Source: Taiwanofungus camphoratus (lineage: Eukaryota; Basidiomycota; Agaricomycetes; Polyporales; Taiwanofungaceae). Taken from it: a stretch of DNA of 64,000 nucleotides. Below are positions 460 through 52,660 of this stretch, in pieces (positions within the stretch are counted from its first letter, which is position 1; the number at the start of each line of letters is the position of its first letter). The translations under genes and the position numbers were made by a program. The notes under the pieces are model-generated. The model made no database searches, was not told the DNA's origin, and worked only from the letters and a program-made list of their open reading frames with translations. The stretch spans positions 124,001-188,000 of the forward strand of contig CP021221.1 in NCBI GenBank assembly GCA_003999685.1, given 5' to 3'.

Positions 460-523
460 AAAAATATTAAATTTTAAAAATATTGGATTTTAAAAATATT
501 GGATTTTAAAAATATTAAATTAA
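460..523. repeat. AT-rich tandem repeat, 16 bp unit, about 4 copies
   Basis: The unit aaaaatattggatttt is repeated about four times head to tail; the first and last copies read ...attaaat... in place of ...attggat.... It lies inside the CpG-free repeat region. It is a simple minisatellite with no known role. Confidence 0.8.
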
Positions 524-923
524 AAAAATCAAAGTTTTGAAAAGATTGAGAGATCCAGCTGTTCTTTAGATGTTTTGAAGATTATAAATAGGGTTTTAGA
601 TGAATTGTTGAATGGTTAGAAAGTTGTGGAATGGGAGATTTGAAGGTCAGAATAATACAAACTAATATCAAATATTCAAACTGGATAACTGACTTCATTA
701 GCAAGAAGCAAGGGTTTATAAACAGTCTGTTGTCTGCACAGTGTGAAGTTCATGTGATAGCTTGTTGAGTATTGCAGTCTTACTGTACTAGCAGTAGCAA
801 TTGTCAGACTCTCTAGTTTGTGATTTGTCTACTTTTTGTGAATTTCTCATGTGGCTATATCTCTGTTCTCATCCTGAGTTAGACTGTCATTACTAGTTAT
901 AGTATTGCTCACAGCTGTATTAG

Positions 924-13314: not shown

Positions 13315-15286
13315 ATGCCCACCAAAACATACCTTGACCCGTCTACCGCACTCGAGCACTTGAAGGCTTATGAGCGGTCAGATGGCCTGGCTGTGGATGA
13401 GCTCATGAATTCCAAAGTTCACGGGGGTTTGACATATAACGACTTCCTCATGCTTCCTGGCAAGATCGACTTCGCTGCGCACGAAGTGAGTACGGAGAGC
13501 AAAGTCACCAGGAATGTGGTCATCAAAACACCGTTCATGAGTAGTCCGATGGACACCGTCACAGAGGGCGAGATGGCTATCTCTATGGCGGTGAGCTTTC
13601 ACCACCACACGCGCACGGCAACGTCTCCGACACTGTGTCCTTGTAGCTCCTTGGCGGTATTGGTGTCATTCACCACAACCAGTCGCCGCAGGAACAGGCC
13701 GCCATGGTGCGCAGAGTTAAGCGTCACGAGAATGGCTTCATCGCAGACCCGGTTGTCCTGTCTCCTTCGCATCGCGTAGAGCACGTCCTAGACGTCAAAG
13801 AGCGGCTTGGATTTGCTGGTGTCCCCATCACAGGTACATTCGGTCTCCTTCCCCCCCAACGTGATGATCCTTTTTTATTACCTTCGTTCTTCCGAGCCAA
13901 CGCGTTACACACGTGTGATGTGCGGATCCTTTTCACGTAATATTCCTGATTACCTGCGCGTTTCGTCCTGCACTTTCTCTGCAGATGCTAATGGGCCCAC
14001 ACAGACACCGGTGCACTTGGCGGCAAGTTGCTTGGCATTGTGACGAATCGGGACGTCCAGTTCCGTTCACCATCGACGCCGCTGTCAGAGGTGATGACCA
14101 CGGACCTGGTGACCGCACCTGAGGGCGTGACGCTGGAGGAGGCGAACGACATTCTGCGGGATTCGAAAAAAGGCAAGCTGCCCATCGTGGATAGTGCGGG
14201 CCGGCTGACGTCTCTGCTGGCGCGGTCGGACTTGCTGAAGAATCAAAACTACCCGCTGGCGTCAAAGTTGCCTGAGAGCAAGCAGCTGTATGCGGCGGCT
14301 GCTATCGGGACGCGGCCCGCAGACCGTGTGCGCTTGGAGATTCTGGTCGAGGCAGGGTTGGACATTGTTGTACTGGACTCATCGCAGGGCAACTCGATAT
14401 ACCAAATCGACATGATTCGGTGGATTAAGGAGACGTACCCGAAGCTCGAGGTGATCGCCGGGAATGTTGTCACGCGCGAACAGGCAGCGCAGCTCATCAT
14501 GGCAGGAGCGGATGCGCTACGCGTCGGCATGGGTTCTGGTTCCATTTGCATCACGCAAGAGGTGATGGCTGTTGGTCGTCCACAGGCGACGGCGGTCTAC
14601 GCAGTGGCTGAATTTGCAAGCAAATTCGGCGTACCCGTCATTGCAGATGGCGGGATCCAAAACGTTGGTCACATTGTCAAGGCGCTGGCGCTAGGTGCGG
14701 GCGCGGTCATGATGGGCGGCTTACTTGCGGGTACTACGGAAGCGCCGGGAGAGTACTTCTACCATGAGGGCAAGCGTGTCAAGGCTTACCGCGGCATGGG
14801 CAGTCTCGTACGTTCCTGATTATGCGTTCGTGCGGTGCATATTCATGTTTCTGTGCATTATGATAGGAGGCAATGGAGCAAGGGAAGCCCGTACCTCCCT
14901 CTATGAACGGTTCCAGTAGCAGTGCTTCCAAGAAGCCTACGACGCACGAGAATGCAGCGACAACACGCTACTTCTCCGAGGCGTCCGCTGTAAAGGTGGC
15001 GCAGGGTGTCTCAGGCGATGTCCAGGACAAGGGCTCTGTGAAGCAGTTCCTGCCATACCTCTATACCGGGCTGCAGCACTCGTTCCAGGATATTGGCGTC
15101 AAGAATGTGCAAGAGCTGCGAACTGGCGTGAAGGGCGGTAAAGTGCGCTTCGAGCTACGCACAGCGAGTGCACAGGTCGAGGGTGGTGTCCATGGGCTTA
15201 ACTCGTTAGTGTTCATCCCTTCGCTGCAATGGTCTCATTGACAAACTCCTTACAGGTATACGAAGAGACTTTTTGCTCAGGCTTGA
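13315..15286 (+). CDS. Inosine-5'-monophosphate dehydrogenase
   Basis: Model: 13315-13590, 13647-13833, 14005-14807, 14867-15204, 15256-15286; 544 aa. It oxidises IMP to XMP with NAD+, the rate-limiting step of guanine nucleotide synthesis, in the cytosol as a tetramer. Order: N-terminal barrel segment with [22 protein letters not shown] and GGIGVIHHN; two CBS domains (about 125-245, with [18 protein letters not shown]); then the second half of the barrel with [19 protein letters not shown] carrying the catalytic Cys336, PVIADGGIQ, and the flap region YRGMGSLEAM. Length is typical for fungal IMPDH (about 520-550 aa). The fifth exon is only 31 nt and encodes the C-terminus YTKRLFAQA. The start [16 protein letters not shown] matches the family N-terminus better than the upstream ATG at 13201. 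Confidence 0.96.
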
Positions 15287-15633: not shown

Positions 15634-16069
15634 CTAGAACCCGAGCCGAATCCATATCCTGGCGCAAAATGTGCGAATTCGGTTGAACATTGTGGAACAG
15701 AACCGGGCAATTTTGTGTCTGTATTTCCGAGCCGTATGGAGCCCAATGGCAATGAGGATCCCGAACACTGCCGCCAAAAGGTATGCTGAGACAGGCAAAG
15801 CCGCACCCATTGCGACCGCTTGTGCACTCGCAAAGTCACTGCCTACGACGACATTCCCAACGGCAGATTGCACCGCAACTGCAAATGTGCCTGCAATTGG
15901 AGTCATCGCGTCAGGAGGAAAATGTAAAAGATGGTGATGAACGGTCTTGACCTGCCACAGGTCCGATTGAAGAGAAACCGGCGGCAAGCCCCAATACTGC
16001 TGGTGCAAGCGGCTTAGCCAAAGCCGCTGTTGTGATACCTCCCATGGCTGGGGCTGTATAGACACCCAT
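15634..16069 (-). CDS. ISG12 (IFI6/IFI27-like) family membrane protein without RING finger
   Basis: Model: complement(15634-15890, 15952-16069), 124 aa, one 61 nt intron in phase 1 at a Gly codon. The start ATG at 16069 is preceded by an in-frame TAA. The protein is almost wholly small hydrophobic residues: PLAPAVLGLAAGFSSIGPVAG, then AVQSAVGNVVVGSDFASAQ and VAMGAALPVSAYLLAAV, matching the ISG12 domain (repeated glycine/alanine helices, SxQSxGxxG core). It ends in a strongly basic tail (ARKYRHKIARF...RIWIRLGF). In animals this family lives in mitochondrial, ER or nuclear membranes and modulates cell death and innate immunity; the fungal role is unknown. It differs from its two neighbours in having no RING domain; I looked upstream for one and found none. 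Confidence 0.75.
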
Positions 16070-17289: not shown

Positions 17290-17932
17290 ATGATATTGCC
17301 AGACCCTCCGCCAAAATACACACTTGAAGAGTCTAGCACATCGGTGCCCGTATGCTCCATCTGTAACAAGCCAATGCAAAATGGCATCCAGGGATTCGAT
17401 GGATGCAGCCACAGATATCATGCTGAATGCCTCATCCAAAAGGCAGGCCGCTGTCCCGCGTGCAGGTGAGCACACACCGCTCGGTCCTGCATGTAGCAAA
17501 GTGTAAGGGACTTGCTTTATCAGACCTAATGACCCAAATTGGACTCAAGTCGCACTATATGCCGGTGGTGCTGTTGCAGGAGCGGCTCTGGCACCCGTCG
17601 TTGCGCCTATAGCCTTGGGCGCCGTAGGATTCGGTGCATCAGGCGTCGTCGGCGGTCAGTATCTTGACGCTGCTGTATATGACGAGCCTACTGAATTCTT
17701 GACAGGCTCTTTGGCAGCTCTCATCCAGGGCGGGATCGGCAACGTAGCAGCTGGTTCGCTGTTCGCGATTTGCCAGAGCATCGGGGCAGGCGGCGCGCTA
17801 CCTGTCCTCGGGTACGTCGCCGGGGCGGGGTTAGGCGTCGCCGCTACTGCTGCTGCTGGGCAAGCAGGAGGCACGGAGAACGATGAACGCGATACGAATG
17901 ACGACGCAGAACGAAAGAATAATGAACAGTGA
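17290..17932 (+). CDS. RING-H2 finger fused to ISG12 (IFI6/IFI27-like) domain
   Basis: Model: 17290-17465, 17524-17654, 17706-17932; 177 aa, introns of 58 and 51 nt. The N-terminal RING-H2 has the spacing Cys22-x2-Cys25-x13-Cys39-x-His41-x2-His44-x2-Cys47-x7-Cys55-x2-Cys58 (CSIC ... GCSHRYHAEC ... RCPAC). A short linker (PNDPNWTQVALY) leads into the ISG12 region: GGAVAGAALAPVVAPIALG, a glycine-rich VVGGSLAALIQGG, then NVAAGSLFAICQSIGAGGAL. The tail is acidic and charged (NDERDTNDDAERKNNEQ). RING-H2 fingers recruit E2 enzymes, so this may be a small membrane-anchored ubiquitin ligase. That is inference from architecture. The second intron falls at the same Gly codon and phase as in both neighbouring paralogues, which supports the model. 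Confidence 0.82.
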
Positions 17933-18654
17933 TCGTCTATCGTACAGCATTCTCTGATCTTGACTGAAGATGCCATCCGTGTATGCTTAAGAGTCTCCAA
18001 TGTTTCACTACTCACGAAAGATTAATATGATGATTTGTGTTGCACAATGTACGAGGTGCGACAAATGCAGGAGTTATGCAACAAAATAGACTTGTGATCA
18101 ACACTAATGCCCTATCGATATCTGAACAAGGACGCTCGATGTCAACGCACGGCTGGGGTACATTGAAACAAGTTCTCGGCAAAGGGACCTAGCTTTCGAC
18201 GTTCGGTGGTTGCAGCCATAAGATTACCCACAACCGCGCCATGTAATACTACCTACCTACCTACCGATGACAGCGCTACCAATCAATGGGGCAGGATGCA
18301 AGGACGCAAACCGAGATTATACCTCACGCTGCGACGCACTGATAAGTTCGAAGGCAGGTCCCGCGGTAGCGCCTCCGAGGCCAGTTTATATAGCAGCGCC
18401 ATTCCTCTAGAGCATCCAGTATATCTAAGAGAAGGCGGGATATGCTTCCCTTCGAGCCGATTCTGCTGCAAATGGACACTGCGAACCGTATTAGGGAATG
18501 AAGCTGGATGGGCAAGAAAATGGATATTGTATATTAAAATGACAGCGTCAGATACAACGTCAGTACAAATACAGCGGCATGCAACTAGAAACCAAGAAAG
18601 TTGGACTTCATGGAAAAGCGGGATCTAGACCTGAGTCCAATCTATACAACGCTC
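17933..18654. other. Convergent intergenic region between two RING-ISG12 genes
   Basis: 722 bp between the 3' ends of the plus-strand and minus-strand RING-ISG12 genes. Open frames such as 18206-18628 plus show no domain. A short (ctac)n-like run, cctacctacctacc, lies near 18251. Confidence 0.35.
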
Positions 18655-19281
18655 TCAGCGCTGCTGTACATGCTGAGACACGCCCTTGCCTTCGTCCGAG
18701 TTTCGCGAGACTCCATACTCATGTCCACTGTGGGTCTCCGCTACAATACCAGCAGCGGCACCGCCCACTGCCGCGCCTGCTGCATAGCCTATGGCGGGCA
18801 GATGGCCGCCCATGGCGATGCTCTGGCAGAGAGCGAAGAGCGAGCCAGCAGCGACATTTCCTATGTGGCTGTGGAGTATGGCCGCGAGAGATCCTGTGCG
18901 ATCGTCGCGTCAGTAAAACGAACGTAGTGGCGGGAAAGAAAGTGACCTGCGACTGGGCCCGCCGCGCTGAAGCCGACGAAGCCAAGTGCCGTTGTCGCAA
19001 CGATGGGAGCTAAGAATGCTCCAACGGCCGCACCGCCTGTGTACATTACGACCTTTTTCCCAATTTCAATGGCCCTAACAAGCGCACGAGGACAAGTTCG
19101 TCAGCGGTGAAGTTGGACAAGCAATGATGGACGCTCACTGGCACAATGGGCATCGCTTGGTCGTCCGCCGGAGGCAGTAGACGTGAAAAACGTGTGAGCA
19201 TCCAAAATTCCTGACCCTGCGGTCGTCTGGCGGGCCATAATGAAGTTGGTTGTTGCAGATATCGCATCTATCTGACGGCAT
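18655..19281 (-). CDS. RING-H2 finger fused to ISG12 (IFI6/IFI27-like) domain, second copy
   Basis: Model: complement(18655-18893, 18947-19074, 19139-19281), 169 aa. It starts MPSDRCDICNN. RING-H2 ligands are Cys6-x2-Cys9-x18-Cys28-x-His30-x2-His33-x2-Cys36-x7-Cys44-x2-Cys47 (CDIC ... GCSHVFHVYC ... RCPLC), with the same spacing after the first loop as the neighbour. Then AIEIGKKVVMYTGGAAVGAF and the ISG12 region (TTALGFVGFSAAGPVAG, SLAAILHSHIGNVAAGSL, ALCQSIAMGGHLPAIG). The tail is hydrophilic and ends VSQHVQQR. The RING is invisible unless the first exon is read in its own frame and spliced CA|GG, which closes the frame exactly. Intron positions match the paralogue at 17290 (one right after the RING, one in the Gly codon). 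Probable integral membrane protein with E3 ligase potential. Confidence 0.8.
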
Positions 19282-28272: not shown

Positions 28273-30188
28273 CTACGCCCCCCTTCGCCTCCTCTCCACC
28301 CTTCGTCGGCTGACCCACTGATAACCCTCGCTCGGCCACCCCGGCAACTCAACATCACCTTTCTCCAGCCCCCACTGCAAATATGCCACCTCTCCGATAT
28401 AAGCACCCATCTCGGCGAGGTCATCGTCGAGCCGCTGGCTGTAAGGTGCTGTCCCACGCAACATGCGCACGCTCTTCAGCGCCGAGCCACCTTCACGTGT
28501 AGCGCGCTCAGAAACGGCCAAGAAAAGTGCAACGGGCGAGAGCGCGCGGTCGCAAATCGTGAGGTGTGTGAGCGCTGGACAGGGGAAAGGTAGCTGCCTG
28601 CCAGGTTCCGCGGGTGTCGATGGATAGCTGTGCGAAGGCGTGAGCGCGGCGAGCAGGGCGCGCGAGGGCATGTGTGCGATCGTCAGATGCGTAAGCGCGG
28701 GGAGTGCGGTGAAGATCTCGAGCCAGGTCTCCCGCCGCAGCGACGCGGCATCCGTCGCCACCACAAACGATTGCACTTGGCGTGTGTCGAGCGTGTCGAA
28801 GAGTGAGGGGAGCACGGCGGGCGCATAGAAGTCGCCCTGCAGACATAGAGTGTTTTTGCGAAGCGAGAGCAATTGCGGGCCCCGCTCCTTCTCCGTGTCT
28901 GGGGCCGCCGCACGGAGGGCCGTCAGCCCATGAAGCGGGCGTAGGTGCGTAAGGTCCGGAGGGAGCAGCGCGTGGAGCGTCTCGCCTCCGCGGAGGAGGT
29001 GCGCACCCCAGATATTCACGGCCGTACTCTCGGGCAGCGCCAGGTGCGCCAGGAAGCACGCAACGCTGCGTGCCCCCGGCCAGTCGCCCACATCCAGCGT
29101 CTTCAGCTCACGCAGGCTGACAATCCGGCGATCCGCGTCCCCCCGCGGCGCGTCGCTCTCAGCCGCGACGGGCCCCGCGTCGACGAGGACGAGCTGCTGC
29201 ATGCGCGGGCTGCCCGCGAGAAAGTCGAGAAACGAGGAGAGACACGGGCGCGCGTGCATGGGCTGGTCGTACAGGCACACGTGCGTAAGGCGCACAAAGC
29301 TGTTCTCCGGCCACGCCGCGTACCCGCACAGCGCGAGCCGCTCGAGGCGCGGCGTGCACCCGCCGAACAGCCGTGGCAGCGCGCCGGCGCTGTGCTCCGG
29401 CGCCCCGACGTCGCGCGCGATCGTGAGCGACTGGAGGGACGGGGCGGGGTGCGAGAAGGCGTGCAGGAGCGCGGCAGGGTAGCGGAACTGCGGCTCCAGC
29501 ACGAGCGCCTCGTACCGCTCCGACTGTGCCGCGAGCGTGCCGACCAGCGCGGGGTCGCCGAGCGTGGGTCGGAGGTGCGAGTAGTACGTCTTGTCGCGGA
29601 GGTGCACGGTCAGCTTAGCCGCCTTGGAGCGCGCGAGGGCCGCAAGGGCCGCTGCCGGGTGCGAGGCGTCGACGGTGGCCCAAAGCGCAGGAAAGCACGA
29701 CGCGGTGGTGCGCCAATAACGACAGACATGTGTCGCGTGCAGCCAGGCATACGGCGCAGGGTGCGAGGGTAGGTCGGGGAGCCAAGATGTCCAGGAGGGC
29801 GAGCTAGATGAGGGGGAGGACGGGGAGGATGGTTCGGCGAGCTTGCTGAAGATGAGGGCGAGGGTCTCGCGCGGGAGCGAGTGGATGGGGAGAAATGCAT
29901 TCCGAATAGAATGGATCGCAGCGTGGACGGCGGCGAGCCTGCGCTCGAGGTCGTCGAGCTGAGGACAGTTCCCATAAGTGCGAAGGATGGTCCACGGGAA
30001 GGCTTACCTGGCTGATACTGAACTCCTGTCGGATTCTGGGAGAGCAGGTAGGAGTACTAGCAGCATCTGCCAGGAGGTGGTAACACATACTGCCTCAAAT
30101 CACCAGTCGGAGCCAGCTTGCGATGCAGGGCGTCTACGAGCTCTACGATGCTCAGGTCCATCCCCACGGGGCCTCCACAGCGGGACAT
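28273..30188 (-). CDS. F-box protein
   Basis: Model: complement(28273-29958, 30008-30035, 30091-30188), 603 aa. Most of the protein is one 1.69 kb exon; exon 2 is 28 nt and is needed to keep the frame. A short coiled-coil-like segment (LDDLERRLAAVHAAIHSI) precedes the F-box at about 65-120: FLPIHSLPRETLALIFSKL ... YAWLHATHVCRYWRTTAS. This is the layout of the very large agaricomycete F-box family. The remainder is leucine-rich (for example LERLALCGYAAWPENSFVRL, LREKTLDVG-like and LTHLTICDRALSP segments), probably irregular LRRs for substrate binding. F-box proteins bring substrates to SCF ubiquitin ligases via Skp1. Target unknown. GC content is high throughout the large exon. The first two exons are the least certain part. 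Confidence 0.82.
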
Positions 30189-31996
30189 AACGACTGAATC
30201 AAATGTCAGTGTGGAATCGTTCAATAAAAATAGGATCAGGGGCCGACAGAGTATCGACGTCAAATGGCCCCGGTCAGGACTGGAGGCAGATCAGAACTCG
30301 CACAAGGCCCTCGTCAGGCGAGAAATTGAGCCTGAGAGCGCTATTCAGCAGAATCAGCACTATTACAGAAATACACGGCGTCATGTTCGCGGGCTGGCTT
30401 ATCGGACATGGTTCGGACACGGGTAAGCATGTCAGCCACTAGCCCGTTCAGGATTTGATATCGGACAGAGTCCGAGCGACATGCCTGTGAACCTGAGCGT
30501 TGAGCATCATGCAGAAGACCGACTTTAAGACATAAACCGAGGGCCCAAGCAACGGAAGCGTTCACGTTGTCGCTAGAAGACTCGCAGGATGGAGACGGTT
30601 GCAACAAAGACAAGACTAGGGCGGGTTGGTTCGGACATGTGTATGTGCATGCGCAGGAGCTCCTCGGGCATGGTTTGGCATCGCGACATGGTCATCGGGT
30701 ACTTACGATGCTTTCGTGCATCGAATGAGTACGGTCATAACTCCCAAGATGCGAGAAGCGGCAGAGGATATTAGATGCATTTATACTCAACACACGACGA
30801 CGTCCGACTCGATATCTTGCAGCACGTGTGGTCATTTTTCCTTGAGAGGTAGAAATCAAGATGGGTGTACATCGATGAACGCGATCCCGAGCGAGGTCAG
30901 GGATGACATTGATATAGTGGAGAGCAGCGTGGATGTATCAAGGTCACATAGTCCAGGCAGGGCAACCAGCCTGCCACTAAACATTCCACTTCCTCACCAG
31001 CCAAGCGTTTCATGCACGTCCTGGGTATTCAAACGAGACCATGACTACTCGCTTCGCTGTTTTATACGTCTAGGCAACATATCGCATACACCTACCGGTG
31101 GAGGTTCAGTGGACTCGGAATCAAGTCGCAACCGAGGAAAGGCTTATGGTTGCTGTATAATGCTCATCCTTTGGACAAGTGGATGCGCAGTCCGGCTAGG
31201 CATAGAGATCCCCCGACCGCACTTGTGTGCCGTGCCTTTATATCTATTTCCGAACAATGAGGCCTGAAGTTTGCTGGAGCTCGGATCACTGTCCAAGGTG
31301 ACGTCCCATCATTGGGACGATAATGCCTCAGCTTCGCATCTCTCAGGTAAGCTTTGCTCATGATATGGATTTCATCGACGGGGAGTCTGCTAAAGGAGCC
31401 CTTCGCGCGGTTTACACAGCAACAGGTTGTGGGTGGCATGATTATGAGATGAGGTAGACCCTGGTGAAGTACAAGTCGTCAGCGGGCGGCGTTAGTTGCA
31501 GTGTAGCACATATTCAATGTCATAGACTTAGTGTTGCGCAGAATATGTCAAATCGACGCAAATCTGGGCGTGGTATAAGGACCAGTAGCAGCAGAAGAAC
31601 CTGTCACAGACGTGGGTGCTCGGCCATTGAGATAAACTTGCGTCCGCATGAAGGAGCTCATGATATGGAGGACATGAGATTGCTACGGAGACTCACTTCA
31701 GAGACCGCCTCAGCCTGGAAGGGTTGTTCGGAGAGTACTTTGGGGAACAACGGTATGGACTCGAGACGTATGATTGCACTTATGTACCCTGTGTAGCATC
31801 CTCAGGCTCCATTGCCATTCATTGCAAGGCGGTCATGCGACTGAGGTTCTCATCCAGCCTCCTGCCGTCTTTCATATTGGGTTTTCACCTAAGACGTGCT
31901 GGCAACTCGAGGCTCCTTGCTGCTTCCTGGCCAGCGGGGTGTACAACCCTTGCACTCTTCCATCACGTCGCCTGCTCTTGCGATGCACTCAAGACA
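30189..31996. other. 1.8 kb without a resolved gene
   Basis: Upstream of the F-box gene and up to the 5' target duplication of the truncated LINE. The part next to 30188 should be the F-box promoter. The longest frames (30626-31267 plus, 213 codons) show no domain I recognise and look like chance. Confidence 0.35.
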
Positions 31997-32009
31997 AGTG
32001 TGCATGCGC
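31997..32009 (+). repeat. 5' target-site duplication of the truncated LINE
   Basis: The 13 nt AGTGTGCATGCGC at 31997-32009 recurs exactly at 33321-33333 directly after the poly(A) tail. This marks the ends of the insertion. Confidence 0.92.
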
Positions 32010-33008
32010 CCTGCCTACATCACCACCCTTATAGTCTGTTCCGATAACCAATCGGCACTCGACCGAATTTTCAAGCCGGAGGTCGGACCATCACAAATGG
32101 CGGCGATCATGGCCTCTCAACACGTCCGAGCGTTCCTCGATGCAGATGAACACCGACGTATTGTCCTTTTTTGGGTTCCATCTCATAAAGGCATTTTTCA
32201 GAACGAGTTCGTTGATGAACTCGCGAAGAAGGCATTGGATGAACCCCAACCGGAATTCATCTCACAATCAATGGCCCTTGCTCGTGTTAAGGCAAGGGTC
32301 AAAAAGCGCTGGGGGACACTAGTCGATAACCCCAGCTATCGAGGCCGAAGGTTATGGAAAGTAACCGAGGACGCCCTACCGCTGCACGGGACCACGGCTA
32401 AGGGCACGTGGATCTTAAAGACAGCTGGCAAGTCCAACAAGGAGGTGGCATGCGTATGCCGCGTGCTCACCAATCATTTCCCAGGCGGTGAATACCGCTC
32501 TAGGTTCAATATCCCTGACCCTCACCTCTGCTTGTGCGGAGCGGAAGAAACCAGGGAGCATGTGCTCTTTGACTGTCCATTCTGGATCAGGACAAAGCGC
32601 CAACAGGGTCCTCGTGATCCGCTTCTGATGGGGCCCCCTGAACAAAGGGGATGGACCCCAGATGACATTATGGAGTTCCTTCGGCTCAACCCGATGGTCT
32701 CCACATTTGATTGGGCAGAGATTCTAGCAGAATCTCTGCTTGAAGCTGAAGCTGCGTGCACGAGAACATTCACTCGTGCCCGTCTTATATGCCACACTGT
32801 CGGAAGACAAGCGGCCTGGCAGCGGTTCCATGCGGACCGGCATTTAGATCCTAGTATGACCACAGCCCTGGGTGGAAAGTACCGGGATTTCTGCGAGTGG
32901 TACGACGCCGAAGCAAAGGCGTTTGAAATGTACCATAACTGGATAGATGAGGGGATAGCAGAACCCAGTATCCGCGATGACCCCCACGTCTATCCGAATG
33001 ACAACTGA
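32010..33008 (+). pseudogene. Truncated LINE ORF: C-terminal half of RNase H and zinc-finger tail
   Basis: The open frame runs without interruption from the truncation point to the TGA at 33006. It starts at the third RNase H block (TLIVCSDNQSALDRI) and includes WVPSHKGIFQNEFVDELAKK (the H-G-N-D block), then the Cys/His tail CLCGAEETREHVLFDCP that is usual at the C-terminus of this LINE class. Endonuclease and reverse transcriptase are absent, so the copy cannot move on its own. A few residues differ from the copy at 39 kb (for example EHRR versus ERRR) through CG to CA changes. Confidence 0.9.
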
Positions 33009-33603: not shown

Positions 33604-35835
33604 ATGTTTTTACGCATATCAATACTCATCTCCTATGTCCTCGTCATCCTCCTCTACGGCGCCAACGCAGACCCAAATGCAGGAGCATCTGGGTCGTCTC
33701 TCTATCCTCCTGGCCTGCTGCCCCTGATCAACCGCGCTAACGCACTGCTAAGTGCTGGACAATTCAATGATGCCGCAAAAGCCTATTCGGAAGCGATAGG
33801 TGAGTAAACACGGGTTTGGGCTCGATAGTGCATACTCTTCGTAGGAAAAGGGATGTGGTCACTTGTACTTTCAACCTTTTGTTGTCGATCGTCAAATTGT
33901 TGAAAATATTACTGTTTGAGGCCAAGGGAATGCTGCGGGGAGCAGAGTGAGCAGAACACAGAACGTGTCCAGGGAGTGACGCTCTTCAGGTGGCTACTTC
34001 CTGGGAATGTTGCGCGTTCTTCGCATCCTGATTCTTGGATGTACATACCTACATCGAGTCGAGCAATCGTGATCGACACTTCCAGTGCTGGGTCATTCTA
34101 AGCTTTCTAACTGCAGTTCCTCCTATGCACCTACCATTGTCTGCAGGAACTCAATGATACCTACAGATCAGTCCCCCGCGGATTACCTCCTCTACTACAA
34201 GCGCGCCACTGCGTACTACTCGCTCAGCCGGCACCCCGCCGCGCTCGCCGACTTCGACAAGGTGCTCTCGCTCACCGGCGGCTCGTTTGATAAGGCGCAT
34301 CTGATGAAGGCGCGCATCCACGCGCGTGATGGCGCGTTCCCCGCGGCGCGCGACGCGATCAAGAAGTACACCGCGAAGGTGCGCGACGAGGCTGCGCAGG
34401 AGGTGCTCTTCGGGATCAGCGAGGGCGAGCTCGCCGCGCGTAAGACGGGCCAGGCGATGCGTGCGGGCCTGTGGACCGCGTGCGTCGAAGCGGCGAGCAC
34501 GGCGCTTGCGACCGCGAGCCATAGCGCGGAGCTGAGGCAGCAGCGGGCGGACTGCGCGCTGGCGGCGGGGGACGTCGAGGGTGCCGTGGGCGACCTGACG
34601 TACGTTTTCTCTCTTGTATACTTTTCAGACTGTGCACAATTTGGTACAGACGCCTGACGCACCTGACGACGCCCTCGACCTCGCTGCTCATGAAGATCTT
34701 CCGCCTCTCGTACTTCCTCGGGCCGTACGCGCCCGGGCAGGCGCAGTCGCCCGCGCTGTCCACGCTCAAGCAGTGCCTGCACTACGACCCGGACTCGGCG
34801 CAGTGCCTGCCCGCGCATAGGCTCGTCAAGGGCCTCGACAAGCAGTTCGCCGCGCTCGAGCGCGCGCTCGCCGCCGAGGACTGGCGCGTGGTGCTCGACG
34901 TTGCGGTCGCGGGCAAGGGTGGCAAGGCGGGGCTCGCGGATGCGTTCGACGCTGCGCTCGACACGCACACCGCGCGCGCGGCGCTGCAGCTCGCCCCGTT
35001 CGTCCCGCCGCCGGACGCGCGGCGCACGTCGCCCCGGCGCGAGGCGGTGCTCAGGGCAGCGTGCCGCGCGTACACGAAGCTCGGCGAGGCGCGGCGCGGC
35101 GAGCGCTGGTGCGACGCGCTGCTGGCCATGGAGGGGCGGGGCGACGACGCGGACGGGCTTGCGGGGCGGGCGGAGGCGCTGATGGCGAAGGAGGAGTGGG
35201 AGGAGGCGGTGCGGGTGCTCGAGCGCGCGTTTGAGGCGAGCGGACGCTCCAATCGCGAGGTGCGTTTGTGCTGTGGTTTGTATCGCGGTGAAAGTTGGGC
35301 TGGTGTTCATGCGTATGCTCGAAGATCCACCAGAAGCTGCAGAAGGCGCAGAAGCTGTTGAAGCAGAGCCGCCAGAAGGACTACTACAAGGTGCTCGGTG
35401 TTGCGCGTGATGCGGACCAGAAGACGATCAAGAAAGCCTAGTATGCCATCTCTCTGCCTTGACTTTCCAAAAAGATTGGAACACTAACTTTTTTGAAGCC
35501 GGAAAGCAGCAATGAAGGCGCACCCAGACAAGGGTGGCAGCGAAGCCAAGATGGCATCCGTGAATGAGGCATATGAGGTGCTCAGCAAGCCAGGTGCGTC
35601 CTCCGCTGCAAACATCATCATTGGTTGAATTTCACACTCTCATACCATAATAGAGCTCCGACAGCGCTTCGATAACGGGGACGACCCGAATGACCCCACG
35701 ACGGCACAGGGCGGGTACCCATTCCCCGGCGGCCCTGGCGCGCAACATTTCGCGCAATTCTTTGAGGGCGCTGGTTTCCCTGGCGGGTTCCAGTACCATT
35801 TCAGCCCGCCAGGACAGCATGGGCGCGGGCGCTAG
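33604..35835 (+). CDS. ER-resident TPR / DnaJ co-chaperone (DNAJC3 / p58IPK-like)
   Basis: Model: 33604-33799, 34167-34599, 34650-35259, 35325-35440, 35499-35593, 35654-35835; 543 aa. Signal peptide at residues 1-22 (MFLRISILISYVLVILLYGANA). TPR repeats fill about 35-400: LLPLINRANALLSAGQFNDA, ADYLLYYKRATAYYSLSRHP, AELRQQRADCALAAGDVEGA, AVLRAACRAYTKLGEARRGE, DGLAGRAEALMAKEEWEEA. A C-terminal J domain follows (QKDYYKVLGV ... KKAYRKAAMKAHPDKGG) with the HPD triad at 460-462, then a Gly/Pro/Phe-rich tail (AQHFAQFFEGAGFPGGFQYH). This combination is diagnostic of DNAJC3. The protein delivers unfolded clients to BiP/Kar2 in the ER lumen and stimulates its ATPase. No KDEL-type signal is present at the end (GQHGRGR). 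Confidence 0.92.
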
Positions 35836-39375: not shown

Positions 39376-41577
39376 TCAGTTATCGTTCGGGTAGATAGGG
39401 GGGTCGTTGCAAATACTGGGTTCCGCTATCCCCTCATCTACCCAATTATGGTATAGTTCAAACGCCTTTGCATCGGCGTCATACCATTCACAGAAATCAC
39501 GGTATTTTCCACCCAGGGCTGTGGTCATACCGGGATCTAAATGTCGGTCCACATGGAACCGCTGCCATGCCGCTTGTCTTCCGACAGTGTGGCACATAAG
39601 ACGAGCACGAGTGAATGTTCTCGTGCACGCAGCTTCAGCTTCAAGCAGAGATTCCGCTAGAATCTCCGCCCAATCAAATGTGGAGACCATCGGGTTGAGC
39701 CGAAGGAACTCCATAATGTCATCCGGGGTCCATCTCCTCTGTTCAGGGGGCCCCATCAGAAGCAAGTCTTGAGGACCCTGTTGGCACTTCGTTCTGACCC
39801 AGAATGGGCAGTCGAAGAGCACATGTTCCCTGGTTTCCTCCGCTCCGCACAAGCAGAGATGAGGGCCTGGAATATTGAACCTAGAGCGGTATTCACCACC
39901 TGGGAAATGGTTGATGAGCATACGACACACGCGTGCCACCTCCTTGTTGGACTTGCCAGCTGCCTTCAGGACCCACGTGCCCTTGGCCATGGTTCCATGC
40001 AGCAGTAGGGCGTCCTCGGTTACTTTCCATAACCGGTGACCGCAATAGCTGGGATTGTTGACTAATGTCCCCCAGCGCTTTTTGACCCTTGCCTTGACAC
40101 GAGCAAGGGCCATTGATTGTGAGATGAATTCCGGTTGGGGATCATCCAATGCTTTCTTTGCGAGTTCATCAACGAACTCATTCTGAAAAATGCCTTTATG
40201 GGATGGAACCCAAAAAAGGACAATGCGTCGGCGTTCATCAGCATCAAGGAACGCTCGGACGTGTTGAGAGGCCATGACCGCTGCCATCTGCGACGGCCCG
40301 ACCTCTGGCTTGAAAATCCGGTCGAGTGCCGATTGGTTATCGGAACAGACTATAAGGGTGGTGATGTGGGCAGGGACATCACAGACTGCTTCACGCAGCC
40401 CGCGCGCCAATGCCAGCATCTCTGCATTGAAGCTCTGGACCTTGCCGGCCCTGAACTTCTCATGGGCAACGTGGTCTTCCCCGTCAATGACGAGCCACGC
40501 GCTACCTGATCTCACTGTTGGCGCATTTGTATACGACCCATCAGTGAACAACATTCGCCCTTCTGGCTGGGCCAGCTGGCACCGGAATTCCGGCCACCGG
40601 GTGAACTCCAACCAGTCGGTGAATTCTGGTGAGCGTTTGTTTGGACCCTTTCTGTCCAGGAACACCCGCTCGAAGCGATCAATGTACCAATCCACGATCC
40701 GATCACCAGGCCGCGTCTCCGGATGGAGTGGTGCAAAGTCTTCTGATGACTGTCGCCCGATGCGATCTATGAACGTCATAGGGGTGACAGCCTGTTTTTT
40801 GCCACAGCGTGAATTAAGTGGCCATGGCGCAGTGATATTGGTGACGTTGGTCGCCCAATAGGGTGGAAGGGTGGCCCTCATTGGGTGCCCTTCGTGAATT
40901 TGCCTCGCTCGAAGCACAGCTTTTTCCATGTATCGGTCGACCTGGATGCGGATGGGGACCAACCCACCCAACATCTCCATTGCCCCGATCGGTGTGGTCT
41001 TAAAACAGCCAGTAATCCACCAGGCTGCTCTCGACTGAGCGGTCTGCAATTCTTTTGCAGCCCATTTGAGGCCCTTCCACTGTGGGTTCCACCACAGTTG
41101 AGCACCGTATAGCATCAACGGGACGACGTGTGCAATATAGAGCCGCCGCTTGTTGATGGGATGGAATCCGCGTGTCGAGTTACCGAGCATGCGGAGTGCG
41201 TTGCACGTGCTAGCCGCCTTATTGGCATAAAACCACACGTGCGCATGGAAGCTAAGCTTGGGGTCCAAGAAGAACCCAAGATAGCGCATGGTGTCCTTTG
41301 CTCGCAAAGTGACGTCATGTCCATCAGTCCGGATGGTTAGATCTGGTCCGAGTGGTCGAAAAGTCGAATACCCCTTCTGGCGCTTCCAGAAGTGCATTAA
41401 CTCCAACTTATCTCCTTCTACACCTAAACCTAAACAGTTCAGGTCGCCAACGAGATCATGGAAGACATCTGCCAAAATGACGTTGTTCTTCAATACAAGG
41501 GCTTGCGGGCTGTCGTCAACAGTCTTCGGTGAAGCCGCCATGATGAGACCGTCGTTCACGTAGAACTGGGTCCCGGT
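39376..41577 (-). pseudogene. LINE ORF segment: RT motif C onward, RNase H, zinc-finger tail
   Basis: An open frame of about 730 codons ending at the TGA at 39376. It begins just beyond insertion B with RTGTQFYVNDGLIMA, where the RT catalytic F-x-D-D box reads YVND. The thumb and connection region follows (MRYLGFFLDPKLSFHAHVW, LMLYGAQLWWNPQWKGL). RNase H has its four acidic blocks (MLFTDGSYTNAP, SFNAEMLALARGL, IVCSDNQSALDRI, PSHKGIFQNEFVDEL). The tail has CLCGAEETREHVLFDCP. The RNase H active residues are intact. Confidence 0.9.
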
Positions 41578-41581
41578 ACGG

Positions 41582-44500
41582 TGATACGACCTAGGGGACC
41601 CTGGCACCTAGGGAGTGCTCCGCAACGTGGCTGTGGGGTAGTGTGATAACTGTGGTGATGTGAGGGTAGGAGCTACAACCTGTATGATACCGGGAAACCT
41701 GTATGTCTTGTTTTTGTAAGTAGGGGAGTAAGGGGTCAAGGGTCCTGCACAACAGGATCTTGTTCCTAAGTGCTATACTATCCCTAAGGCCTTGCGAGGC
41801 TCTTCGAAGTACGCAAAGTTCTTCGAGATTCTGCGAAGTCCTTCGAAGTTTTAGCTAAATCACACAAGCTGACTTCGTAGGTGCTGCGAAGTCCTTTTAG
41901 CTAGAGTTAGCTAAAGGGCGTAAGGCTTAGAGGTTTGATAGAGCGAGGTGGGTGAGGTTTGGCTAGCGTAGGAGACCTGTAGGAGAGGTCGGAGAGTTCG
42001 AGGGCGTAGGGAGATGTACTATAGCCTGAAACTAAGGCTATAGGAGAGTCGTAGGGCTATTCGTAGGATGTAGGGATAACGCAACGTGAGCCTAAGGGTA
42101 TAACTAAGGCGGAGGCCCACCGGTGATGAGTCCCGTAGCCTCCTGGGCCCCGAATCGCAATTTTAGGAGCTTTCTAATCCCCCAACCGACCACTCTAAGA
42201 CTCTCCTACAGCCTACGACAGGAGGGATAGGTCCCTATAATATTCCTAACGCCCCCTCTCCTTCCTAAACCCTCCTAACACCCTACGAAGTCTGGCGAAG
42301 TCACACGAGGTGCTACAAGATTCCAAATGCTAGACGCGAAGTCCCTAACTCCTGCTAAGTCCACTATTGGACACTGCCGGTCCTCCCATACTGTTTCATT
42401 GGATCTAGGTCCTATCTACTACATCACTCATTCCGGGCTTAGCTAAGAAGTCGTAGCTAAGTCTCTCCTAGCTCTTGTGATTGCAGCTACCTCCGATAGG
42501 CTCCGAAACGGTCCGGAGTTCTGGAAGTTGGACTTAGGAAGCCTTGTGCACCTCTATGGGTCTCGATCCTATGCCATAAGGTCATCCTAGGGCATACCCA
42601 TATGACCCTCCACCCAGTTAGGACACCTCCTGCCCCGATTAGGCCAAGTCCCGCTGCTAAGAACTTCGTGCGCTCTTAGCCCACTAAGATAGGTGATCAT
42701 GGCGCATGGCTGCTCTCAGATAGTCATCCCGCCCTCGTGAATGAAGTTGGTCACCTTTCTACCGTACGTAGTTCCCCTGTTTCAGTTCCTAATTAGTTCC
42801 TATCCTCCTCATGTTCACTTCGGAGTCCATGCACTTTAGTACACATTTCGGACTCGTAAGGATCACTTTGCGCAAGATTAGTTCACCTCACGCTCCCCTA
42901 TTTAGTCAGAGGTAGTTTACTATGTAAGAAGAGAGACCCCTCAGTGCACGCTTCTCTCTTTGGAATACCAGTTCCCCTGTAGCTCTGATCTCAGGAAAGC
43001 ACCGCGAGTACAACCTTAGGAACGGTCTTAAGGTCCCTAAGTCTCCACCCCAGCTCCGTTTCAGTACCTTTGAACTACGTCTACGCTCGCGATATATCTA
43101 CGAACCACGTCTACGCTTCCCGAACTACACACTACGATCCACAAAGTCGCCGTGACTTCGCACCTTTCAGCACCTCATATAGCATCTACCCGGTGGGCCT
43201 CCGCCTTAGTTATACCCTTAGGCTCACGTTGCGTTATCCCTACGTCCTACGAATAGCCCTACGACTCTCCCATAGCCTTAGTTTCAGGCTAGAGTACATC
43301 TCCCTACGCCCTCGAACTCTCCGACCTCTCCTACAGGTCTCCTACGCTAGCCAAACCTCGCCCACCTCGCTCTAACAAACCTCTAAGCCTTACGCCCTTT
43401 AGCTAACTCTAGCTAAAAGGACTTCGCAGCACCTACGAAGTCAGCTCGTGTGACTTAGCTAAAACTTCGAAGGACTTTGCAGAATCTCGAAGAACTTCGC
43501 GTACTTCAGAGGGCCTCGCAAGGCCTTAGGGATAGTATAGCATTTAGGAACAAGATCCTGTTGTGCAGGACCCTTGACCCCTTACTCTCCCACTTACAAA
43601 AACAAGACATACAGGTTTCCCGGTATCATACAGGTTGTAGCTCCTACCCTCACACCCTCACAGTTATCACACTACCCCACAGCCACATTGCGGAGCACTC
43701 CCTAGGTACCAGGGTCCCCTAGGTCGTATCACCGGGTAGATGCTATATGAGGTGCTGAAAGGTGCGAAGTTACGGCGACTTCGTGGATCGTAGTGCGTAG
43801 TTCGGGAAGCGTAGACGTGGTTCGTAGATATATCGTGAGCGTAGACGTAGTTCAAAGGTACTGAAACGGAGCTGGGGTGGAGACTTAGGGACCTTAAGAC
43901 CGTTCCTAAGGTTGTACTCGCGGTGCTTTCCTGAGATCAGAGCTACAGGGGAACTGGTATTCCAAAGAGAGAAGCGTGCACTGAGGGGTCTCTCTTCTTA
44001 CATAGTAAACTACCTCTGACTAAATAGGGGAGCGTGAGGTGAACTAATCTTGCGCAAAGTGATCCTTACGAGTCCGAAATGTGTACTAAAGTGCATGGAC
44101 TCCGAAGTGAACATGAGGAGGATAGGAACTAATTAGGAACTGAAACAGGGGAACTACGTACGGTAGAAAGGTGACCAACTTCATTCACGAGGGCGGGATG
44201 ACTATCTGAGAGCAGCCATGCGCCGTGATCACCTATCTTAGTGGGCTAAGAGCGCACAAAGTTCTTAGCAGCGGGACTTGGCCTAATCAGGGTAGGAGGT
44301 GTCCTAACTGGGTGGAGGGCCATATGGGTACACCCTAGGATGACCTTATGGCATAGGATCGAGACCCATGGGGTGCGCAAGGCTTCCTAAGTCCAGCTTC
44401 CGGAACTTCGGACCGTTTCGGAGCCTATCGGAGGTGGCTGCGATCACAAGAGCTAGGAGAGACTTAGCTAAGACTTCTTAGCTAAGCCCGGGATGAGTGA

Positions 44501-47895: not shown

Positions 47896-49323
47896 TCAGC
47901 GAACACTTTTTGCCGTTGCCGTCACGAATTGTTGGGCCGCGTCGCCGATGCGAGGTATTCCCCGCACCAGTTCTGGTTCAACTTCAATCGGCATCTCCCA
48001 CCGCAGGACCGCGTGGTCGCTGTTGTGGCGATGTGACATAAGTACATGAAGGTCTTGGCCTTCATAGTACACTGGGTCGATCCACACCAAGTCAATGACT
48101 CCAGGTGTGAGAGCGATATTGTGGGAACGCCAAGTGACTGGACTGTTCTGGGCGTTCATCAAGACCAGATCGAGTTCAGTTTGAGCCAGCTCGATAAGGC
48201 GATTGAAATCAGCGTAGTGCGGAGGCCGCACCCTAGATCCCGCAGCTCGTGCATCCCACAATGGGTGGCGGAGATTGAAATCCCCGCACATGCACGCAAT
48301 GGGTGGAAGCGCGTGGACACGTGTTTCCAAATACCGGACAGCATCAAATGTGGTGCTGTCGTTGTACACATTCAGGACATGGAAGTCCCCGGATGAAAGC
48401 TTAAGCGCTACCAAAAGGCAATCCTTATGGGAGACGCTGTGGATGACAACTTGCGGAGAAGCCGAAGCCCACCGCTTGTTGACATAAACAGCGACCCGGG
48501 AATCTTTCGATGCCCCGAGGCACTTGAACGAGGCGTGGGCTGACGTATTCTCATACGCCTCCCCGTCCCGTGACTTAGCTGAGGCCACATCCTTGATGCG
48601 ACCCCAAAAAATCTCTTGGACACAGACAATGTCGGCATCCCTATGTCTCTCAAGTAGAATGCTCGTATTCTCCGCAGATTTCTGAACATTCGCACTTATA
48701 CAGGTGAGTACGGGCCTAGTAGGCTCGTCTCTCAGATTGTCGCCATCAACCATAGGGCTGGGCGTACGTGAGGGGTCCGCTTCCACCATCATGGGGGAAT
48801 CGGGCTGTTCAATGGGTTGTGAAGCCGGCGGAGTTCCAAACGGTGGGGCCGAAGCACCGTTGGAAGAAACCAATTCACACAATGACTCATTATGCCCACA
48901 TGGGGCTAATGGCATGGAGCCCGAACCGGTGTGCCATGCACTACCGGCATGGGCAAAGGGCATGGAGACAACAAGGCTGTCTCCAGCACCATTGTATTCG
49001 TCGTCCCCTCCCCTATAGGGGGAGGGTCTACTACGAATCCTTTGCAAATCGTCTGGCACAGTGGCCGTCAATTCTAAGAGAGGACCTCCCGAGAGGAAGG
49101 AACTCGAAGTGGATCTCTCCCCATAATAGGGTGAGATCAAAGGTGTGTCCAAAGGACGAGAGCTCAGGGGTTCCGAGTCGGCTTGAGTGCGATGAGCAGG
49201 GCAGCCACCATGCACCGACATTGCACTCGACGAGGTGGGTGCACCATCAGTCCTAAGACCAACAGCGGCTATAGGGGCACCAGTATGGGAAGAAAAGGAT
49301 AGGATGTGAGGTGATTTAGACAT
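47896..49323 (-). pseudogene. LINE ORF segment: N-terminal region and AP-like endonuclease
   Basis: Starts at ATG 49323 (MSKSPHILSFSSHTG). About 210 residues of low-complexity Ser/Pro/Gly-rich sequence precede the exonuclease-endonuclease-phosphatase domain: TCISANVQKSAEN, DADIVCVQEIFWG (Glu), HVLNVYNDST, CMCGDFNLRHPLWD, VIDLVWIDP, and the terminal NSDHAVLRW (the S-D-H box). The catalytic residues look intact. The frame ends in a stop at 47896, and coding continues in another frame (SAALKALNEWGTALSE), so at least one frameshift lies near 47.9 kb. Confidence 0.9.
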
Positions 49324-49391
49324 GCTGGGCACGGGCGCTAAATCGAGATGGTGGTGGTACTGGTTCAAGAAGCGGCGTGCCAAGTGTCCTC

Positions 49392-50717
49392 GAGCCCTCG
49401 GACATCTTCTACCTCTACTCTTTCCATGCAGGCGGTTTATATAGAAGACAGCTTAGCGCTAACAATTTCTGCGATGGACAAATTTTCTGGTCGCACACCA
49501 CCCGGGTTCCAGTTGAACGTTTAACGCTCGAACCCTTATGTACAACACTGGGGATGTTCTTCCCATGGTTTGGCGTGGAACATGTTCTCAAAACATTCTG
49601 AATGCAAGGTGATTCTCAGGGGCTGCATCCGACTCGGAAACCTTGTGTCTTTTAGGACTTTACTTCCTGATTTGTCTCGCCCTCGCTCAATGTTAACTCC
49701 ATACCTAGGCATCACGGAAAAGGTTACAAAGTGCTTCATTTTGTATGAACCATGAAGTGTCGCGTGTCGTCGCGCAGACAGTATGTTCCTAGTTGATCGT
49801 TTTCTCGGGGGCTCTCTACCTCTCTCCTGCACTTTTTTTCTTACTAAGATGAATGTTCTAGATATCTTTGTTATGCAGGAACGTCAGGGTCGAGAGGAAG
49901 ATGACTCTGACCAATGACACGTGTAGACATGGTTGTATGTTGTGCAACATCGGTCGACCAGCTGATCCGCTAATGGGAACATTCCATATGTATGGCTATG
50001 TGACATGGAAGCGATCTTGTGCAGTGAATGTGCGGAACCTTCAAACCTAAGTTCCTGTCCTACCGTTCCTATTGCAGAGGCCGGGCGTCTAATGCGGCTC
50101 TCGTCGATAAAGAAGGTCCATTCCGAATTGATCCATCAGAAAACATGCATTCATGGAGGGTCGAGAGCGGCCGTCCTTGTGTAATAATTCAAGATGGCTT
50201 CAACCTGGATGCGAAGGTTGTCGGCGCCTGCCTGACACTCGCTATTCAAGAGAAACGTTTAATAACTGAGTTATTATATATTGTCCTCGACGACGACTTC
50301 TTGCAGGGTGTGCACTGTCGTATTTCAAATATTCTTTCTTTGATTTTATGTATGACTGATGAGCCTGTTAGAGGTATGTAAATTCGCGCGGTTTCGTGGT
50401 TAGATTCACTGACAGGGCGTTACTATAATTAGCTTATGAGGCAGCATCATTAGACTTTCGAGACTTGTTATTCTCCGCCTTTCGTACGCTGTACTTGGCA
50501 TTGGGCCAGAACTCAGTAATATGTCACATGGCGAATGGAACAATACTCAGGTCCAATAGGATGAATGCGCAGGAACGTGTGCCAGATTCATTTGAATCGT
50601 TGTATACAGCTGCTCAGACTCGAATAGTAGAGTTTATCTTCATTCATTGATGTTGAGGCGCAGACTGATTGTATGTGTATATGTCACTTATCGTCTTGCC
50701 TTGTTCACTATCTACTC
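49392..50717. other. 1.3 kb without a resolved gene
   Basis: Between the LINE target duplication and the first oxidase copy. AT-rich relative to the genes. Short frames such as 50028-50381 plus are not recognisable. The region next to 50718 would be the promoter of the oxidase pseudogene. Confidence 0.35.
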
Positions 50718-52660
50718 ATGGCTGTTCATCCCCCTCAGACTTTCCGAGACTTCCCCGATAATCCTGTTTCAAACTATGGGAAAAACATCATCGACAATTT
50801 TCAAACAAAAATATGCCAGGATGTCGCAAATATTCCCAAAATTCCCCTGTATCTACCATTATCATTTCGTGATGTCCTTAACAAGGTTGGTGGTGGACAT
50901 CTCCACTCACCACCGAATGATGCACCTTCATGCATTATTCCAGTCCCTACAGATGCTAAGGTAGGTGGATTGTACGCCGCGAAGTTGCTTGAAGAGCACG
51001 ACTGTTATGTACGGATCTTATACAAAATCTCGGCATGCTGCTAATTTGTGACGCATCTAGGCTGTGGGAGCCATGCGCTTCCCAGACATACCTATCATGA
51101 AACCGCTATTTGAGCTTTTCCGCGGTCTCAAATTGGATTGCATCAAGTACTACAAAGCGATAATACAGCTCTACTCTACAACGAGGTTCTCGTGCAGCGT
51201 ACCTCCGCTGATCCGGATCCGAAGAAGTTCGATGTCATTGGTATTCCTCCAGACTATCGTCAACTAGGCTTGACAGCGCTCATGGACAATGTTCTAGGAC
51301 TGTTCGTCAAGCGCCTCGCTGACGATTGTTACAAGAAGCAGATTACTGGCTGGGCGCTGATGGCTTATGACATGTATTCGACCCGCACCTACATGTCCGG
51401 AAAACGCAGTGATACACGCAAGTGCCTTGATGAGTTGCAACAGATGCCATATAGTACAAAGGTGGTGAATTGGTTAGACATTTACCGGCTCTACCAGCTC
51501 GCACGACAGGGCATTGTAAGAAACAGTTCTGGGGAAAGTGGCTTTCGATCACCCGGCAGTGGAAAAGCCAGTAAAGTGTTTCTGTATTGAGTGAGTCATT
51601 GAAGATCATATTCGTGCCGGCTAACGTCTGACGACTACCGCTTGCCTCAAGGGTGGTTCCGAGGTCATTACGAAGAAGCTGAGTGAAAATCTGCAGAACA
51701 AACCTATACTTCACATGTGTGTCAATGCAATATCGTACATCAAAGATAGTTCTGACCATAAAGGCCCCGGGACAGGAGTTCGTTTACATCTCGTCAACGG
51801 CCAGTCTAGAATGTATGCGCGTGTCATCAACACCACTGCCCTGCCTTGTTTACGAACCACGGACCTTGCGGCCGCAGAACTTGATTCTGACCAGAGTACT
51901 GCGCTCAGTGAGCTTCAGTATGGTTCTACGACCAAGATCAGAGTGAAATTCAAGACAGCCTGGTGGGGAGAAGCCGCCGTGATGAAGGAGCTTGGAGGAT
52001 GCGGCGCTATTGTGGGGGGGCAGTCGTTCACTGACCGTATGGTTCGTACGGTCGTCTATCCGTCGTACGGCGTTGACAGTGGCCGCCAGTTTACGGTACT
52101 CACCGTTAGCTACGCAAGGACAGCGGATGCCTCACGGTGGCACCCCTTGCTAAGAGAAGAATCGGAGGAGCAACTCAAGGAGATCGTGTTGCGGGACCTC
52201 GCCGCTGTCCATGGTTTCGACCCGGTGAAGGAGGTGGAATCAACGAGTGGCACACCATGCATGGAGCTGGGTCAACGACCCGTATTCAATGGGTACGCCA
52301 ACCTGATCGACCATGTCCCTATTTTGACACGACTATACACCAGGCGCATTCGGCTTCTTTGGCCTGGGGCAGTTTGCAGAAGTAATCAAGCATCTTGGTC
52401 GTCCTACTGCCGGCGGCAGGCTTCATTTTGCAGGTGAAGGCGTGAGGTAATGTTCTGTTTATTTCGGTATATCAGTCTCAGCTTGACTTGAGATTCTAAT
52501 CAGATGGGCTGTTGGTGCGCTTGAAGCGTCACGTCGCGCTGTACAAGAAATTGTCCTCTGCAGTTGTCCGGACAAGTGGGTAAAATCCGAGACGACATCT
52601 GGCGAGAAGGAGGTGATTTGGACAGATGAACGCATCATGTTCCAAATTGCTGTATTTATA
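50718..52660 (+). pseudogene. L-amino-acid oxidase-like flavoprotein, broken copy A
   Basis: Closely similar along its length to the intact copy B: PDNPVSNYGKNIIDNF, VGGLYAAKLLEE, VGAMRFPDIPIMKPLFELF, NTALLYNEVLVQRTSA, YDMYSTRTYMSGKRSDT, INTTALPCLRTTDL, IVGGQSFTDRMVRTVVYPSYG, RDLAAVHGFDP, then GAFGFFGLGQFAEVIKHLG, RLHFAGEGV and WAVGALEASRRAVQEI. The FAD-binding GxGxxG glycines are missing: the sequence goes directly from DAKVG to GLYAA, a short deletion. Frame changes occur near 51150 and 52240, and extra stops need non-family joins. I treat it as a pseudogene, with unconventional splicing as a less likely alternative. Confidence 0.75.

Follow-up and report, generated by a model that had tools for sequence, protein, structure and literature searches.

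The window analysed here is a 64,000-nucleotide (nt) stretch of the 3.4-Mb contig CP021221.1 of Taiwanofungus camphoratus, whose whole genome comprises 33.2 Mb on 15 contigs. Three small genes were located in the window, at about 15.6-19.3 kb: first g3 on the minus strand, then g1 on the plus strand and g2 on the minus strand; g3 and g1 are arranged head-to-head, and g1 and g2 are convergent, lying tail-to-tail. At the level of sequence, g1 and g2 are confirmed as two adjacent genes that each join a RING finger to an ISG12 domain, the architecture proposed in a preliminary description of this DNA. The third gene, g3, had no place in that description; its translation starts near the ISG12 domain and includes no RING. 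Computation supplied the gene models, the two domains, the intron positions and phases in common, the constrained divergence and the hydrophobic segments, and from the models we infer splicing in the cell. Coordinates of all features are collected in Table 1.

All four introns of g1 and g2 follow the GT-AG rule, measure 51-64 nt, stand in phase 2 and then in phase 1, and occupy homologous places in the two genes. In both, intron 1 splits the codon immediately after the last RING ligand. As the length of the second intron of g2 is not a multiple of three, its frame is kept only by splicing. By a pattern search with YTRAN, a branch-like site was found in four of the five introns of g1, g2 and g3. 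The least certain point is the start of g1, whose N terminus may be longer, since the upstream frame stays open as far as 17122 and includes another Met codon. No Met codon was present in the g2 frame 5' of its start.

Comparison of g1 with g2 gave 46% identity for the RING (17/37 aligned residues) and 62% for the ISG12 part (53/86). The ratio of nonsynonymous to synonymous divergence (dN/dS) was about 0.31 for the RING and 0.17 for the ISG12 part, with dN at 0.51 and 0.29, respectively; dS was about 1.7, a value near saturation and obtained from short alignments. By this comparison both halves look constrained, and g1 and g2 represent an old, diverged duplicate pair. That paralogues so diverged share the same phase-2 junction after the last RING ligand argues for a single gene containing both the RING and the ISG12 exons. 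In g1, the frame with the ISG12 part (17507-17932) contains no Met codon and is thus hardly a gene of its own.

An in-frame TGA occurs within the 5' splice site of intron 1 in g1 and g2 (17466-17471 and 19133-19138). Because it is part of the GTGAGC splice site, a transcript of either gene that kept intron 1 would be translated no further than the RING, and a free RING form arising in this way is possible. The same stop could be read as a sign that the RING and ISG12 exons are transcribed separately and that the fusion is a reading error; g3 is also an example of an ISG12 gene on its own, and a Met codon lies near the start of the ISG12 part of g2. We regard this explanation as extremely improbable, given the diverged paralogues that keep the order of the two domains and the junction at the same residue across introns of 58 and 64 nt, and given the lack of a Met codon in the g1 ISG12 frame. 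One detail of the models speaks against the joined gene: in intron 1 of g1, the YTRAN pattern found no branch-like site.

The spliced proteins were searched with Pfam profiles, a check that had been proposed together with the first description. Ifi-6-16 (PF06140, cut-off 29.1 bits) scored over its cut-off in both, with 36.8 bits (expect value (E) 3.7e-9) for g1 and 39.0 bits (E 7.6e-10) for g2; single exons of the two genes scored under it. zf-RING_2 gave 26.5 bits (E 7.9e-6) for g1 and 24.0 bits (E 4.7e-5) for g2. The check thus came out clearly for the ISG12 half, and for the RING half the scores were significant yet just under the cut-off of 27.3. In a genome search with zf-RING_2 by exon, the RING exon of g1 reached 29.2 bits, over the cut-off, and that of g2 25.8 bits, under it. 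Following segment-wise shuffling (five shuffles per protein, n = 10), none of the ten sequences had a hit at E ≤ 1 to Ifi-6-16 or to any RING family. A regular expression for the RING-H2 ligands matched twice in the window, in g1 and in g2, and not once in 40 windows of 64 kb simulated under a first-order Markov model. The gene models, the Pfam matches and the shuffles support the fusion and the identity of both its domains as first described.

The ISG12 part is hydrophobic: in windows of 19 residues, mean hydropathy peaked at 2.07 in g1 and 1.96 in g2, and each of the three proteins (177, 169 and 124 amino acids (aa) for g1, g2 and g3) has several such windows with a mean above 1.3. This suggests insertion into a membrane. 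With a domain over the Pfam cut-off, g1 and g2 resemble the ISG12/FAM14/Ifi-6-16 family (PF06140; human IFI6, IFI27, IFI27L1 and IFI27L2). The best match of the ISG12 part in the PDB was human IFI27-like protein 1 (2loq), the solved human member, and this match is weak (E 0.11 and 0.055); the VAAGSL...QS and GF..xG stretches align with it. The N terminus differs, being a RING in g1 and g2 and a mitochondrial targeting sequence in human IFI27.

The third gene is a more distant relative. Its ISG12 domain is 42-44% identical to those of g1 and g2 (36/86 and 37/85), and its Pfam match to Ifi-6-16 lies under the cut-off (18.5 bits, E 0.0019). Its single intron, 61 nt long and in phase 1, matches the second intron of g1 and g2 in position. 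The whole protein has an isoelectric point of about 11. It ends in a basic tail of 32 residues that may be amphipathic, with a hydrophobic moment of up to 0.63 and a charge of +3 to +6 per 18 residues. A RING hidden 5' of g3 was considered and rejected: the next best window frame for a profile built from the two RINGs had E 0.051 and lay on the other strand, and the ligand expression matched g1 and g2 only. Profile searches of the window frames yielded no further credible RING or ISG12 piece.

When the genome was searched for ISG12 loci with PF06140, with the ISG12 part of g1, with g2 and with g3 as separate queries, all matches fell inside C2:139637-143281, that is, in g1, g2 and g3. PF06140 itself matched exons of g1 and g2 only, not g3. 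Since these searches were made exon by exon with two to four candidates scored each, there are at least three loci, and more distant relatives may have escaped. On contig C14 the g1 RING had two weak matches (E 0.06), which were discarded, as neither strand of the stretches retrieved there held a RING ligand pattern. Among viral contigs, 62 pattern matches to the ISG12 alignment and six to g2 were obtained, none of which was confirmed as a relative; likewise, none of 190 pattern matches to the ISG12 alignment in prokaryote genomes was confirmed.

Both genes lie at the coordinates first given, and the eight correctly spaced RING-H2 ligands initially assigned to each were recovered. In g1 they follow C-x2-C-x13-C-x1-H-x2-H-x2-C-x7-C-x2-C, in the order C-C-C-H-H-C-C-C; in g2, 18 residues separate ligands 2 and 3, and from the third ligand on the spacing is identical. 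The description of the last spacings as identical and of the introns as equally placed was likewise borne out, phases 2 and 1 being shared as well. The seven residues between ligands 6 and 7 fall within the range accepted for RING-H2 fingers. RING fingers contact the ubiquitin-conjugating enzyme (E2) through the Ile that follows ligand 1, a Trp or other apolar residue at the fourth position past ligand 6, and the Pro that follows ligand 7. Both fungal RINGs keep the Ile of CxIC and the Pro of CPxC; the residue after the last ligand is Arg in g1 and Gln in g2. The best PDB sequence match of the g1 RING was synoviolin (E 7e-4), with EL5 at 0.012, and those of the g2 RING were Arkadia and RNF165/ARK2C (E about 8e-4), with RLIM at 0.012; the proteins behind the best matches of both RINGs are named ubiquitin ligases (E3). 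Judged by its ligands and these matches, the N-terminal finger of g1 and g2 is RING-type.

Several results count against a working ligase, besides the Pfam scores of the spliced proteins. Four positions after ligand 6, where Trp is frequent, g1 has Lys and g2 has Thr. As a comparison set, 39 RING matches in the genome were taken, leaving 37 without g1 and g2; 20 of these, mostly those reaching the end of the profile, were examined. With a relaxed ligand pattern, 15 could be parsed (L036 doubtfully) and five could not; a stricter pattern parsed nine. Across these 15, the distance from ligand 6 to ligand 7 is 10-17 residues, as against seven, polar in character, in g1 and g2. Trp occurs at the fourth position after ligand 6 in 6/15 (counted by eye) and is missing from the other nine, so its absence alone says little, and only the short segment sets g1 and g2 apart. 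Structure prediction with AlphaFold, made from two sequences, gave weak models, with a best mean predicted local distance difference test score (pLDDT) of 70.9 for the g1 RING exon (the other four models 50-59) and of 60.5 for that of g2. No match at E ≤ 0.001 was obtained when the g1 RING model was compared with the PDB, the 50 entries listed being mostly PHD and RING fingers.

Such results would be expected if the RING were a zinc finger of structural or adaptor type that has no E2-driven ligase activity itself and through which an ISG12 membrane protein dimerises or binds another ligase. The short, polar segment between ligands 6 and 7 in both paralogues, Pfam RING scores under the cut-off, PHD fingers and GATOR2 subunits among the PDB matches of the g1 model, and a RING that diverges faster than the ISG12 part would all agree with a non-catalytic finger. 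It is harder to reconcile with the retention, in both paralogues, of all eight ligands and of Ile and Pro at their contact sites, and with named E3 ligases as the best sequence matches; the missing Trp, shared with nine of the 15 parsed RINGs, lends it little. Overall we hold a non-catalytic RING to be somewhat unlikely. The preliminary description had spoken of a membrane-tethered ubiquitin ligase. With the Ile and Pro contacts kept on the one hand, and a shortened, polar segment on the other, that wording can be retained as plausible: with so few residues between ligands 6 and 7 in both RINGs, ligase activity is plausible but unproven. The roles that the description offered for such a protein, in organelle quality control, cell death or non-self recognition, are speculative.

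The reading that we prefer, at roughly even odds (about 0.5), is that g1 and g2 encode a small membrane-anchored RING ligase or ligase-adaptor pair. In short, the C-terminal ISG12 domain, rich in glycine and alanine and presumably helical, would insert into an organelle membrane, where it would anchor the protein and bind clients. The RING, probably facing the cytosol, would recruit an E2 or an E3 complex, and the recruited enzymes would ubiquitylate membrane clients, leading to their degradation.

Membrane-bound RING-H2 E3 ligases, such as synoviolin/HRD1, RNF13 and the like, offer a close parallel. They share with g1 and g2 the C3H2C3 order and the joining of a RING to a hydrophobic domain, and synoviolin is the closest match of the g1 RING. 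The fungal proteins differ in that the RING is N-terminal, about 8-16 residues before the hydrophobic part, in that three fewer residues lie between ligands 6 and 7 in the PDB alignments, and in that the membrane part is an ISG12 domain.

A partnership between an ISG12 protein and a ubiquitin ligase has been reported in human cells. According to passages of PMC12646010, IFI27 acts via the E3 ligase SKP2 on C/EBPalpha, and PMC10175689 cites Xue et al. 2016 for IFI27 and SKP2 acting on NS5A of hepatitis C virus. Two results reported in PMC12646010 weaken the parallel with g1 and g2: binding between IFI27 and C/EBPalpha was not seen by co-immunoprecipitation, and the effect on virus transcription was only partly undone by knocking down SKP2. 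In this human route (PMC12646010, PMC10175689) the ligase is separate and recruited in trans, whereas in g1 and g2 the RING is in the same polypeptide; functional equivalence of the two would have to be assumed. A single polypeptide with a RING and an ISG12 domain agrees with the notion that members of the ISG12 family deliver clients to ubiquitin ligases. As a tentative conjecture, unlikely as it stands, the fusion may be a 'Rosetta stone' that hard-wires the ISG12-ligase partnership made in trans by human IFI27 and SKP2; the underlying function of ISG12 domains outside vertebrates would in that case be the presentation of membrane-associated clients for ubiquitylation, and the interferon role would have come later.

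Another role could be derived from human IFI27/ISG12a, which is described in passages of PMC12646010 and PMC10175689 as a mitochondrial, pro-apoptotic protein that perturbs mitochondrial membranes. The fungal ISG12 domain would then be an effector that permeabilises the mitochondrial membrane, as proposed for human ISG12a, with the RING controlling the turnover of its own protein in a device for regulated cell death. Consistent with such a device are the higher conservation of the ISG12 half compared with the RING and the adjoining RING-less paralogue g3; against it, the closest neighbours recognised by Pfam, for example IMP dehydrogenase, do not suggest cell death. We consider it quite improbable.

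Both the RING and the ISG12 families are known, and what is new is the domain architecture. The opinion given with the first description, that no fungal protein with this fusion was known to have been described, met no contradiction: none was named among the matches listed in a search of titles and abstract openings of open-licence literature, protein databases, in which such architectures may sit unremarked, lying outside that search. Among the matches listed, PF06140 appeared in one paper, in a table entry on a ferritin-like protein from Thielaviopsis. A word-stem search of a shrimp IFI6-16 paper (PMC9144789) found no mention of fungi, ubiquitin or RING. The extension to a family in mushrooms had as its basis one genome, which appears agaricomycete-like from 55 matches to DUF6533 at E ≤ 1e-5, a domain that we take to be typical of mushroom-forming fungi; the claim is kept to that extent.

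Human antiviral responses strongly induce ISG12 proteins, yet the molecular roles reported for these proteins are several and differ. Fungi have, to our knowledge, no interferon. A natural RING-ISG12 fusion in a fungus is a direct, testable hint that the ISG12 family can work with the ubiquitin system, and g1 and g2 provide a small two-domain protein on which to test that link. The roles so far reported, in passages of PMC12646010 and PMC10175689, include membrane permeabilisation, cell death and help to a ubiquitin ligase.

Table 1. Features of the three-gene cluster and of the remainder of the 64,000-nt window (window coordinates).
Feature	Position	Strand	Description
g1	17290-17932	+	three exons, 177 aa
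g1 exon 1	17290..17465	+	N-terminal leader, then C3H2C3 RING (ligands from 17353); phase-2 end within the codon that follows the last ligand
g1 intron 1	17466..17523	+	58 nt, GTGAGC...CAG, phase 2
g1 exon 2	17524..17654	+	ISG12 domain, first part
g1 intron 2	17655..17705	+	51 nt, GTCAGT...CAG, phase 1; in frame and without a stop if retained
g1 exon 3	17706..17932	+	ISG12 domain, second part, and charged, acid-rich tail, including stop
g2	19281-18655	-	three exons, 169 aa
g2 exon 1	19139..19281	-	C3H2C3 RING finger (ligands from 19266)
g2 intron 1	19075..19138	-	64 nt, GTGAGC...TAG, phase 2; CTGAC branch-like site
g2 exon 2	18947..19074	-	ISG12 domain, first part
g2 intron 2	18894..18946	-	53 nt, GTCACT...CAG, phase 1; CTGAC branch-like site
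g2 exon 3	18655..18893	-	ISG12 domain, second part, and tail, including stop; exon alone 27.9 bits to PF06140, just under cut-off
g3	15634..16069	-	RING-less, ISG12-type, 124 aa; exons 16069-15952 and 15890-15634, intron 15951-15891
AT-rich tandem repeat	460-529		16-bp unit
IMP dehydrogenase exon	13992-14816	+	with CBS domain
F-box-like open reading frame (ORF)	28276-30003	-	576 aa
Retrotransposon-like ORF	31893-33005	+	RNase H match
TPR/J-domain-like ORF	34525-35358	+
Retrotransposon-like ORF	39379-41607	-	RNase H match
Retrotransposon-like ORF	47899-49452	-	endonuclease match
Flavin amine oxidase gene	51625-52434	+	PF01593
Flavin amine oxidase gene	57834-59730	+	PF01593

The remainder of the window carries genes and repeats of other kinds. 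The IMP dehydrogenase exon lies to the left of the ISG12 cluster. Two of the retrotransposon-like ORFs have RNase H matches, the first of them weak and under the cut-off, and their ends are closely similar by eye. The F-box-like match falls just over the cut-off, in an ORF that resembles a single exon. The TPR/J-domain-like character of the next region was noted by eye and extends downstream of the ORF in Table 1, which alone has no Pfam match; the J-domain-like letters were not exactly placed. The two flavin amine oxidase genes are similar to each other and stand about 6 kb apart. In the first 2 kb of the window, G+C content is only 35%.
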